A stretch of DNA of 64,000 nucleotides from Nocardioides panacisoli. GTDB taxonomy: Bacteria; Actinomycetota; Actinomycetes; Propionibacteriales; Nocardioidaceae. A model generated the notes under the pieces. The model had not been told where the DNA came from, searched no databases, and was given only the letters and a program-made list of their open reading frames with translations. The translations under genes and the position numbers were made by a program. This document shows, in pieces, positions 29,936 to 52,626 of this stretch (positions are counted from its first letter, which is position 1; each line of letters opens with the position of its first letter). The stretch is taken from the NCBI RefSeq assembly GCF_019448235.1, contig NZ_CP080409.1, forward strand, positions 2,790,001 through 2,854,000, read 5' to 3'.

Positions 29936-29960
29936 CGGGTGCGGGCCGGCGATCGGCCCA

Positions 29961-30000
29961 CCGGACGAGGGAGCCGTACCCGGCGCGCGACAAGACGGCC
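29961..30000 (+). ncRNA. Guanidine-III riboswitch (ykkC-III)
   Basis: Three conserved blocks occur in order and spacing: CCGGACGAGG (29961), GCCGTACCCGG (29973) and GACAAGACGGC (29989). These are the invariant parts of the class III guanidine aptamer, a compact pseudoknot. The element lies 14 bases before the start of a SugE/Gdx guanidinium exporter, the classic target. The 3' end GGCCAC (29998-30003) can also pair with GTGGTC (30008-30013) directly before the ATG, a possible expression switch (inference). Confidence 0.92.
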
Positions 30001-30013
30001 ACCTGGTGTGGTC

Positions 30014-50906: not shown

Positions 50907-50912
50907 CATGCT
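50907..50912 (+). promoter_or_regulatory. -10 element of amidohydrolase gene
   Basis: CATGCT ends 7 bases before GTG 50920, supporting that start over ATG 50908, which would lie within the promoter. Confidence 0.4.
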
Positions 50913-50919
50913 GACCGTC

Positions 50920-51879
50920 GTGTGTGCGCCCACCGACCCCGCCGACCCGCCTCGCAACGACCCGCGACCCGACGAAGCGCAACGGCTCCACGCCACGTGG
51001 CAGCGGCTCGGCATCCCGGGTGCGATCGACGTCCACACCCACTTCATGCCCCACAACGTGATGGCCAAGGTGTGGGCCTACTTCGACCGGGTCGGCGACC
51101 ACGGCGGCGTCGAGTGGCCCATCACCTACCGCACCGACGAGGACGACCGCGTCGCCCGGCTGCGGGAGTTCGGCGTACGCCGCTTCACCTCGATGCTCTA
51201 CCCGCACAAGCCGGCGATGGCCGACTGGCTCAACGCCTGGAGCGCGGACTTCGCCGCCCGCACGCCCGACTGCCTGCGCACCTTCACCTTCTACCCCGAG
51301 GAGGGGGTGGGGAAGGCCGTCGCCGCCGAGCTCGACGCCGGCGCCCGGATCGGCAAGGCCCACCTCCAGGTCGGCGCCTACGACCCCCGGGACCCGTTGC
51401 TGGACCCGGTCTGGGGGCTGCTGGCCGAGTCCGGCACGCCGCTGGTCATCCACTGCGGATCCGGACCCACGCCCGGTCCGTTCACCGGTCCCGGGCCGAT
51501 CGGCGAGGTGCTGCGACGCCACCCCGACCTGCGGCTGGTCATCGCCCACCTGGGCATGCCGGAGTACGCCGAGTTCCTCGACCTCGCCGACGCCCACGAG
51601 GGCGTGCACCTCGACACCACGATGGTCTTCACCGACTTCTCCGAGCAGACCATGCCCTTCCCGGCCGACCTGCGCCCCCGCCTGCTCGACCTGGGTGACC
51701 GGGTGCTGCTGGGCACCGACTTCCCCAACATCCCCCACGACTACCTGCACCAGGTGGAGGCGCTGGAGCGGCTCGACCTGGGCGAGGACTGGCTGCGCGG
51801 GGTGCTGCACGACAACGCCGCGGCCCTGTTCGAGGTGCCCGCACCGGGTGCCGGTAGCATCGCGGACGAAAGGGAGTAG
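50920..51879 (+). CDS. Amidohydrolase-2 family protein
   Basis: A 319-residue TIM-barrel metal hydrolase or decarboxylase of the amidohydrolase-2 group. 'AIDVHTHFMP' (about 34-43) gives the first metal HxH; 'PLVIHCGSGP' (His on strand 5), 'LVIAHLGMPEYAEFLDLA' (His on strand 6) and 'LLGTDFPNIPHDY' (catalytic Asp on strand 8) follow. The substrate is unknown. GTG 50920 chosen for its -10; ATG 50908 is the alternative. The 3' end overlaps the promoter and first aptamer bases of the manganese riboswitch; the stop TAG is part of the aptamer. Confidence 0.87.
   Translation: MCAPTDPADPPRNDPRPDEAQRLHATWQRLGIPGAIDVHTHFMPHNVMAKVWAYFDRVGDHGGVEWPITYRTDEDDRVARLREFGVRRFTSMLYPHKPAMADWLNAWSADFAARTPDCLRTFTFYPEEGVGKAVAAELDAGARIGKAHLQVGAYDPRDPLLDPVWGLLAESGTPLVIHCGSGPTPGPFTGPGPIGEVLRRHPDLRLVIAHLGMPEYAEFLDLADAHEGVHLDTTMVFTDFSEQTMPFPADLRPRLLDLGDRVLLGTDFPNIPHDYLHQVEALERLDLGEDWLRGVLHDNAAALFEVPAPGAGSIADERE
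51855..51860 (+). promoter_or_regulatory. -10 element for the manganese riboswitch
   Basis: TAGCAT lies inside the last codons of the amidohydrolase gene and ends 6 bases before the first aptamer base, so transcription would start exactly at the riboswitch. Confidence 0.5.
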
Positions 51880-51960
51880 TCCCCAACTCCTCGCGTCGAC
51901 ACACTGGCCCCTCGGGCCCGGCGCGTCGGGCCACCTCCGGGTGGCGGACGAGACTTTCGA
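51866..51960 (+). ncRNA. yybP-ykoY manganese riboswitch
   Basis: Conserved aptamer parts: 5' strand CGAAAGGGAGTAGTCCCC starting at 51867, central ACACTGG (51900), and 3' GGACGAGACTTTCG ending at 51959. Outer helix P1 pairs CGAAAG (51867-51872) with CTTTCG (51954-51959). AAAGGGAGTAG and CGAGAC are hallmarks of the Mn2+ aptamer. It precedes a TMEM165/GDT1 manganese exporter, a known target. The aptamer overlaps the upstream gene's stop codon. Confidence 0.9.
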
Positions 51961-51980
51961 CTGGACACGCACCATCAACC

Positions 51981-52040
51981 GTGGACGTGCCCGGTCGAAG
52001 GCGCGTCCACGGACACCCCTCCGGCCGGGCGCTGGAGAGG
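51981..52040 (+). promoter_or_regulatory. Expression platform of the manganese riboswitch
   Basis: GTGGACG (51981-51987) pairs with CGTCCAC (52004-52010). GGTCGAAGG (51993-52001) can instead pair with the 3' strand of P1 (51954-51962). CCCCTCC (52016-52022) can pair, with one mismatch, to the GGAGAGG ribosome site (52034-52040). This suggests a ligand-controlled choice that frees or hides the site. Confidence 0.5.
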
Positions 52041-52047
52041 ACCACCC

Positions 52048-52626
52048 GTGTACGCGTTCTTCCTGAGCACCGCCGTCATCTTCGTCGCCGAGCTCGGCGA
52101 CAAGAGCCAACTGATGGCGATGACCTTCGCCGCCCGCTACCGCGCGCGGGACGTGCTGATCGGCATCACGGCCGCGACCGCGATCGTGCACCTCGCCTCG
52201 GTCGGCATCGGCTACGCCATCGGGGACGCCTTCGCCGATGCGCAGGGCGCGATCCGGGTCGTCGCGGGCCTGGCGTTCCTCGGCTTCGCCGCCTGGACGC
52301 TGCGCGGCGACGAGCTGACCGAGGAGGAGGCGGCCAAGGCCCGCGCGAGCCGCGGCCTGGCCGTCGTGGCGGTCGGCACGGCGTTCTTCCTCGCCGAGCT
52401 CGGCGACAAGACGATGCTGGCCACCATCACCCTGGCCACCCAAGAAGGCTGGCTCGGCACCTGGATCGGGTCGACCGTGGGCATGGTCGCGGCCGACGCC
52501 CTCGCGATCGGCGTCGGCGCGCTCCTCGGCCGCAAGCTCCCCGAGCGCACCATCACCTACGGCGCCGCCGCGCTGTTCGCGGTGTTCGGCGTCCTGCTCC
52601 TCGCCCAGGGGGCCGGCTGGCTCTGA
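52048..52626 (+). CDS. TMEM165/GDT1 family manganese exporter
   Basis: A 192-residue membrane protein with six helices in two repeats. Each repeat carries the family signature: 'FVAELGDKSQLMAMTFAARY' (about 12-31) and 'FLAELGDKTMLATITLATQ' (about 114-132); the E-x-G-D-K-S/T residues bind Mn2+ or Ca2+. An acidic loop 'GDELTEEEAAKARASRG' separates the halves. GTG 52048 has GGAGAGG 7 bases upstream. Control by the yybP-ykoY riboswitch supports manganese export as the role. Confidence 0.92.
   Translation: MYAFFLSTAVIFVAELGDKSQLMAMTFAARYRARDVLIGITAATAIVHLASVGIGYAIGDAFADAQGAIRVVAGLAFLGFAAWTLRGDELTEEEAAKARASRGLAVVAVGTAFFLAELGDKTMLATITLATQEGWLGTWIGSTVGMVAADALAIGVGALLGRKLPERTITYGAAALFAVFGVLLLAQGAGWL

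Follow-up and report, generated by a model that had tools for sequence, protein, structure and literature searches.

A P2-less yybP-ykoY-type leader of a GDT1 exporter gene in Nocardioides panacisoli, a probable manganese riboswitch that overlaps the end of an amidohydrolase gene

We analysed a stretch of 64,000 nucleotides (hereafter the window, in whose numbering positions are given) from the genome of Nocardioides panacisoli, which consists of a single contig of 3.57 Mb (NZ_CP080409.1, window positions 2,790,001 to 2,854,000 of the contig). Two genes of the same strand, separated by 168 nt, lie at the locus under study. The product of the upstream gene matched the Amidohydro_2 family in Pfam (PF04909, 3.1e-35, residues 40-309 of 323) and that of the downstream gene matched the GDT1 family (PF01169, 4.8e-38). 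GDT1/UPF0016 proteins are described as defined by E-x-G-D-(K/R)-(S/T) motifs (PMC7380456), and the exporter translation contains AELGDKSQ and AELGDKTM. The 3' end of the amidohydrolase frame, GCG GAC GAA AGG GAG TAG, is read as A D E R E stop. The main features of the locus are as follows.

50908..51879, + strand: Amidohydro_2 gene; stop codon TAG at 51877-51879; the last codons contain the predicted promoter -10 box and the 5' strand of the aptamer
51828..51833, + strand: -35-like element GTTCGA; genus consensus GATTsG upstream of the -10 box; weak alone
51855..51860, + strand: -10 box TAGCAT (TAnnnT), assigned by genus conservation; transcription start predicted at about 51866
51867..51959, + strand: putative Mn2+ aptamer of the yybP-ykoY type, P2-less, with a three-way junction (profile model, consensus structure)
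52048..52626, + strand: gene of a GDT1/UPF0016 divalent cation exporter; GTG start; two ELGDK(S/T) motifs

Elsewhere in the window, the scan with Rfam models reported a Guanidine-III riboswitch at 29939-30004 of the + strand (54.7 bits, over the cut-off).

A consensus structure of the aptamer was obtained with RNAalifold from 59 of the 78 distinct aptamers of the genus (alignment A2; the earlier alignment A1 comprised 42 leaders). It consists of P1.1 of 6 bp, the internal loop L1, P1.2 of 4 bp, the P3.1-L3-P3.2 arm and P4, located in N. panacisoli as follows.

51867..51872, + strand: 5' strand of the P1.1 switch helix, CGAAAG; pairs with 51954-51959
51873..51878, + strand: 5' strand of L1, GGAGUA; faces GAGA at 51950-51953
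51879..51882, + strand: 5' strand of P1.2, GUCC; pairs with 51946-51949
51892..51925, + strand: P3.1 (51892-51898/51919-51925), L3 (ACACACU, 51899-51905) and P3.2 (51906-51910/51914-51918)
51930..51945, + strand: P4 hairpin (51930-51935/51940-51945)

In 14 of the 30 consensus pairs, one or more of the 59 sequences have both partners changed. Both strands of L1, GGGGAGUAG on the 5' side and GAGAC on the 3' side, are invariant in this alignment, and the 5' motif GGGAGUAG was found in 81 of the 82 genus loci. The L3 motif UCGACAYRCUG, of the ACAUACU type, is present in 81/81 genus leaders and has a counterpart, UCAACAUACUC, in E. coli mntP. P2 is absent: the leaders have no room for it and none appears in the consensus structure, and the junction is therefore three-way rather than four-way. 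The distance between the L1 and L3 motifs is 15-16 nt in all 81 genus leaders. It is 14-16 nt in every one of 48 leaders retrieved at family and class level, a set that contains some duplicates. Of 80 named loci, some of which repeat genus loci, 74 were measurable and six were not; 73 of the 74 have 14-16 nt and the remaining one has 19 nt. A minimum of 8 nt was set for these measurements, because recurrence of the motif otherwise gave a spacing of 3 nt in 19 leaders.

A preliminary description, made from the letters of the window, had taken the leader for a Mn2+-type yybP-ykoY riboswitch. The Rfam search that it proposed answered in two ways: no yybP-ykoY match was reported in the window at the gathering score of RF00080 (45 bits), whereas at a relaxed threshold the model matched part of the aptamer, 51892-51925, with 24.5 bits. 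When 20 genus loci were searched with RF00080 at E 0.05, two gave matches, both below the cut-off, and two of 14 control genomes gave matches above it. The E. coli K-12 mntP leader (L254:5462-5558) scored 41.6 bits with RF00080, that is, under the family cut-off of 45 bits; since this site itself falls below it, the cut-off is strict in general. We also used a profile model, R1, made from the 59 aligned aptamers. R1 matches 51867-51959 with 92.3 bits, the N. panacisoli aptamer being one of its training sequences. Though built without E. coli, it also identifies the mntP leader of E. coli K-12 (34.3 bits, E 1.7e-7), which carries a tested Mn2+ riboswitch; the match connects the leader independently with the known class. 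The kept core motifs and this match speak for homology to the yybP-ykoY class and, with a GDT1 gene downstream, they support the identity first proposed as the likely one. The GDT1 family has been reported under yybP-ykoY control in 328 of 333 bacterial strains (PMC7380456). Since neither P2 nor an RF00080 score above the cut-off was found, the leader is filed as a P2-less variant and not as a standard member.

The exporter has a patchy distribution, being present in 82 of 215 genus genomes at E 1e-60 or better. In 81 of these 82 loci GGGAGTAG occurs within 450 nt upstream of the exporter, and the 3' strand of P1.1 and its alternative partner, described below as the hub, are present in all 81 motif-bearing leaders. 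The only exporter locus of the genus without the aptamer motif, L010 (G026), retains a short stretch that, judged by eye, forms a hairpin over the ribosome site. Among 296 genomes of the class, the exporter was found in 98 at E 1e-30. RF00080 exceeded its cut-off in none of the 296 and gave matches at E 0.01 in 12, and R1 matched 130 at 1e-4, some of these being RNAs in front of terC and not exporter leaders; as the class counts for RF00080, R1 and the terC model R2 were made at E 0.01, 1e-4 and 1e-5 with stricter filters, they are not strictly comparable. The P2-less form is widespread in Actinomycetes and, given that R1 matches 130/296 genomes and RF00080 exceeds its cut-off in none, the class probably has more Mn2+-type regulation than is annotated. 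Aptamer motifs were found in 73 of the 80 named loci. A 14-base pattern with one mismatch matched all 120 genomes of the family-wide search and was useless as a presence test; its exact matches still supplied loci. In a literature search that covered titles and the openings of abstracts, and whose coverage excluded most subscription papers, no P2-less form from actinomycetes was found.

Between the aptamer and the exporter gene lie the strands of the expression platform.

51954..51964, + strand: 3' strand of P1.1 with its extension; alternative partner of the hub
51979..52012, + strand: hub hairpin; stem 51979-51991/52000-52012; the loop contains the hub
51991..52001, + strand: hub CCGGTCGAAGG, 11 nt; partner either 51954-51964 or the anti-Shine-Dalgarno arm
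52018..52026, + strand: anti-Shine-Dalgarno (anti-SD) arm CCTCCGGCC; pairs with the Shine-Dalgarno (SD) side, 52034-52040
52034..52040, + strand: SD sequence GGAGAGG (sequence, folds)

As can be seen, the three mutually exclusive pairings of the preliminary description are all located in the leader, and all of them recur in the genus. Its anti-SD arm exists as well, the sequence CCCCTCC being better written as CTCCGGCC, with 52019-52023 paired in the fold. In the 78 distinct leaders of the genus, P1.1 is paired in 99.8% of cells and the helix that competes with it, between the P1.1 3' strand and the hub, in 96.7%, in line with the weak P1.1 switch helix and downstream competitor of the yybP-ykoY class; the latter figure falls to 22-61% when the strands are slid by one or two bases. 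We counted against this competing helix that its columns are mostly invariant, so that column shuffles average 95.3% paired (maximum 95.8), and that two-sided changes occur at pairs 7 and 10 only, i.e., two such pairs compared with 1.4 in shuffles. The eight-pair stem of the hub hairpin is 71.3% paired in the 78 leaders, with a shuffle mean of 64.1 and a maximum of 67.3; its register was picked after three had been tried, two of which gave 34% and 49%; the chosen one, which includes the last base of the hub, gave 71%.

In 73 of 78 genus folds an arm upstream of the SD masks it, and in 66 of these 73 the best downstream partner of the hub overlaps or adjoins the anti-SD arm. In 46 of the 78 leaders, 5 or fewer of 100 dinucleotide shuffles do as well as the hub and its downstream partner; the 32 leaders that fail this test were counted against the pairing, as was the fact that the hub hairpin and the full hub::anti-SD helix compete with each other. 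Outside the genus, 42 distinct leaders were compared with 200 shuffles each: in 30, no more than 2 shuffles equalled the pairing of the P1.1 3' strand with the hub, and in 31, no more than 10 equalled that of the hub with its downstream partner. Linked changes in all three strands were seen in another genus of the family: L125 and L142 have CCAG/CCTGG/CCAGG (P1.1 3' strand/hub/anti-SD), whereas L116 and L120 carry CCGG/CCCGG/CCGGG; in L118, L119 and L123, CCGG occurs with CCTGG and CCAGG, and pairing is possible only through G-U. The tally of the three strands comprised 174 of 195 distinct leaders, the filters having removed 21; its partners were chosen by lowest energy and pair by construction, and shuffles were relied on instead. 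Poor or off-target duplexes were obtained for a few leaders outside the genus (e.g., L135, L163, L174 and L206), which were retained.

We propose that the leader, transcribed from its own promoter at 51855-51860, controls translation of the GDT1 exporter. Without Mn2+, 51954-51964 would pair with the hub (51991-52001), leaving the anti-SD arm (52018-52026) free to mask the SD, and the exporter would be OFF. With Mn2+, the aptamer would dock and P1.1 would be held closed, which would release the hub; the anti-SD arm would then be taken up by the released hub, probably in a pseudoknot that the hub forms while looped in its own hairpin, and the SD would become free. The ribosome site would thus open at high Mn2+ (ON). 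In ensemble folding, the pairing of the P1.1 3' strand with the hub exceeded 0.5 in 72 of 81 loci, which supports the OFF state, and P1.1 exceeded 0.5 in the ligand-free ensemble in none of the 81. Nested folding with forced helices was rejected as proof of switching, because the ribosome site does not open in it: with P1.1 forced in place of the alternative helix, the median SD accessibility over 81 loci was unchanged (+0.0005), with changes above +0.1 in 14 loci and below -0.1 in 11, and in N. panacisoli the SD was unpaired at 0.17 with P1.1 forced and at 0.27 with the alternative helix forced. Nested models can hold neither the hub hairpin together with the hub::anti-SD pseudoknot nor co-transcriptional folding; for this reason we keep an ON translational switch as the most likely direction, which we favour moderately, since induction by Mn2+ makes sense for an exporter and the L. 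lactis relative is likewise described as a Mn2+-specific ON switch (PMC9190785).

The riboswitch may instead act on transcription, by premature termination in the leader, intrinsic or Rho-dependent, and not on ribosome access. In many leaders of another genus in the family the SD hairpin leads into a U run that directly precedes the ATG, an arrangement that resembles a terminator, and the L. lactis relative is reported to switch transcription via P1.1 (PMC11087558). In N. panacisoli, however, no terminator-like site was found in 51700-52150, no U run follows the last hairpin, and the SD-masking hairpin of 73 of the 78 genus folds argues for translational control; we therefore regard this alternative as unlikely. 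Among leaders L105-L125 and L141-L146, which belong to the same family, mostly to another genus, and show an Aeromicrobium-like pattern, many have the U run after the SD-masking hairpin, and one hairpin there may be both terminator and SD mask.

The first helix of the aptamer begins at 51867, and 13 nt of the aptamer (51867-51879) are coding, the stop codon included. The overlap of the aptamer 5' end with the end of the amidohydrolase gene (51879) is thus real, as originally described. The stop codon, UAG at 51877-51879, is part of the invariant GGGAGUAG of L1, and "ERE-stop" is the reading of the aptamer's CGAAAGGGAGUAG in the amidohydrolase frame; the DNA concerned, CGAAAGGGAGTAG, is aptamer sequence that is also kept in relatives without an amidohydrolase at the site. 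A reading frame alone was rejected as proof of such an overlap, since long open frames enter the aptamer UAG in many GC-rich loci. The N. panacisoli frame alone passes the coding-signal test across this UAG, and Pfam supports the frame too. In the coding-signal analysis of 81 loci, a same-strand upstream frame ends inside the aptamer motif or 75 nt or less from it in 31, and inside the aptamer in N. panacisoli alone; in L022, L031, L055 and L077 the upstream frames are ended by the TAG within the -10 box. Besides N. panacisoli, 30 loci have such a nearby frame; the frames of ten were submitted to Pfam, and nine had a domain, from several families, the exception being L077. Of the four loci whose frames stop at the -10 TAG, three have a Pfam domain. 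The aptamer and the -10 box both offer a stop codon, and unrelated genes came to end there.

The amidohydrolase is a common gene of the genus, present in 104 of 118 sampled genomes at E 1e-20. It adjoins the exporter in one of the 82 genus loci, that of N. panacisoli (tblastn, E 1e-10, fetched stretches). The preliminary description had seen in the junction an economical reuse of a coding end and a constraint on the ADERE C-terminus, to be checked by comparing orthologs. We compared 21 amidohydrolase orthologs, chosen from the search hits and mostly the best-scoring ones, and found the C-terminal tail unconserved: few residues follow the conserved L-F/L position, these differ from one ortholog to the next, and the N. 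panacisoli tail is the longest. The tail as a constrained protein feature is rejected on this result, and the direction of constraint is the reverse, from RNA and promoter to protein tail. That the overlap is a selected economy is not supported by the distribution. Because the amidohydrolase is adjacent in 1/82 loci and the riboswitch present in 81/82, the junction is private, and the riboswitch-GDT1 unit, judged by the same comparison, is old and genus-wide. The overlap is best read as an incidental arrangement private to N. panacisoli among the genomes examined. It would have arisen by a private rearrangement in which the upstream frame ran into the old promoter-riboswitch unit and was stopped by the UAG of the L1 motif. 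Nothing observed supports selection for the overlap, which by itself is of little importance; it illustrates how a neighbouring gene can come to end at a stop codon within an invariant aptamer motif with no sign of such selection.

One could imagine that the overlap is functional, with ribosomes that end at 51877-51879 covering P1.1 and L1, blocking aptamer folding and insulating the exporter from read-through. The position of the stop codon inside the invariant L1 motif is compatible with this, and read-through transcripts are possible, as no terminator-like site was found between the genes. Yet the junction occurs in one of 82 loci, and in four others the frames stop at the -10 TAG instead, which suggests that stop codons were simply at hand; we consider a function of this kind improbable.

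The leader has a predicted promoter of its own inside the amidohydrolase gene, with a start expected at about 51866. The preliminary description had placed a -10 element, TAGCAT, in the last codons of that gene, and this assignment is supported genus-wide: 75 of the 81 genus leaders have TAnnnT within a window of 12 positions ahead of P1.1, compared with 12 of 1296 background windows, for which the same window was moved 100-400 nt further upstream. Its 3' end lies 5-9 nt upstream of P1.1 in these 75 leaders, and six (L029, L039, L069, L070, L072 and L073) have no TAnnnT within the searched window. A -35-like GATTsG is partly conserved in the genus, with TTsG about 21 nt before the -10 box; the N. 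panacisoli copy (GTTCG, 51828-51832) is shifted by one base and occupies Leu-Phe-Glu codons at the conserved amidohydrolase end. A strict sigma-70 scan found no promoter at the locus. This last result, and the short distance (168 nt) between two genes of one strand with no terminator-like site between them, would suit expression of the exporter from the amidohydrolase promoter only, the -10-like sequence being unused, but the narrow spacing of TAnnnT in 75/81 leaders with varied upstream genes, and several loci (e.g., L008, L013 and L044) where no upstream coding signal was found except on the opposite strand, make this very improbable.

We therefore consider it likely that the leader is a P2-less yybP-ykoY variant that works like its class, with its own promoter and Mn2+-ON translational control of GDT1, and that its overlap with the amidohydrolase gene is private.

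R1 also matches the N. panacisoli genome outside the window, at genome positions 3556626-3556721 (L285:827-922). The gene directly downstream of this RNA encodes a TerC protein (PF03741, 7.2e-52). In an alignment of 16 loci the terC RNA has the same three-way skeleton, with two-sided changes at 17 of 30 pairs, and its L3 is UCAUCAC-like, in contrast to ACAYRCU in the exporter leaders. Among 30 loci fetched by model R2, some of which had also been used to build it, terC lies right downstream in 25 of the 26 that bear the motif. Eight genes 3' of the 16 aligned loci were searched against Pfam; six are TerC and two (L296 and L299) gave no match. No Rfam family matched the terC RNA motif at E 0.1 in the 16 loci, two of which had other matches elsewhere. 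At 1e-5, R2 has matches in 199 of 296 class genomes, a count to which cross-matching with exporter leaders contributes; at the E. coli mntP locus it had none, even with E raised to 1. Several genus genomes without the exporter (e.g., G055, G083 and G134) still match the terC RNA model. As YkoY is described as a TerC protein (PMC10550928), a link of the terC RNA to Mn2+ is plausible, although its changed L3 may mean a different ligand.

A wider reading, which we put forward tentatively and hold to be possible though not probable, is that Actinomycetes have a distinct branch of Mn2+ riboswitches with a three-way junction and a conserved three-strand exchange, in which the hub loop would form a pseudoknot with the anti-SD arm when Mn2+ is bound, and a terC sister RNA with a changed L3, perhaps for another ion or a different sensing of Mn2+. 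The P2-less branch, which lies below the Rfam threshold, and its terC sister are the parts of most value, the overlap being ordinary: the former is a natural test of whether Mn2+ docking needs a four-way junction, and the latter is a natural L3 variant for asking what part L3 has in the choice of ion.

In general kind, the proposed switch belongs with translational riboswitches that have an anti-anti-SD strand. The likeness, as we read it, is that a strand freed by the ligand competes for the anti-SD. The Nocardioides leader differs in that its hub has two further states, a hairpin of its own and, without ligand, a helix with the P1.1 3' strand, and in the pseudoknot proposed between loop and anti-SD.

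With the yybP-ykoY class (RF00080; L. lactis, X. oryzae, E. coli mntP) the leader has in common P1.1, L1 (GGGAGUAG/GAGAC), P1.2, L3 of the ACAYRCU type, P3 and P4, as well as a gene of a Mn2+ exporter family downstream. The E. coli mntP leader has 29 nt between the L1 and L3 motifs, with a P2 hairpin, whereas the Nocardioides leaders have 15-16 nt and no P2. The solved L. lactis and X. oryzae aptamers are described as four-way junctions, unlike the three-way junction found here, and Mn2+ is reported to stabilise their weak P1.1 helix against strand invasion (PMC6754395). As reported for the L. lactis yoaB platform (PMC11087558), the 3' strand of P1.1 is common to the aptamer and the ligand-free alternative helix there as well; the alternative in yoaB is an intrinsic terminator, whereas in Nocardioides it would be the hub helix, which leaves the SD-masking hairpin intact.
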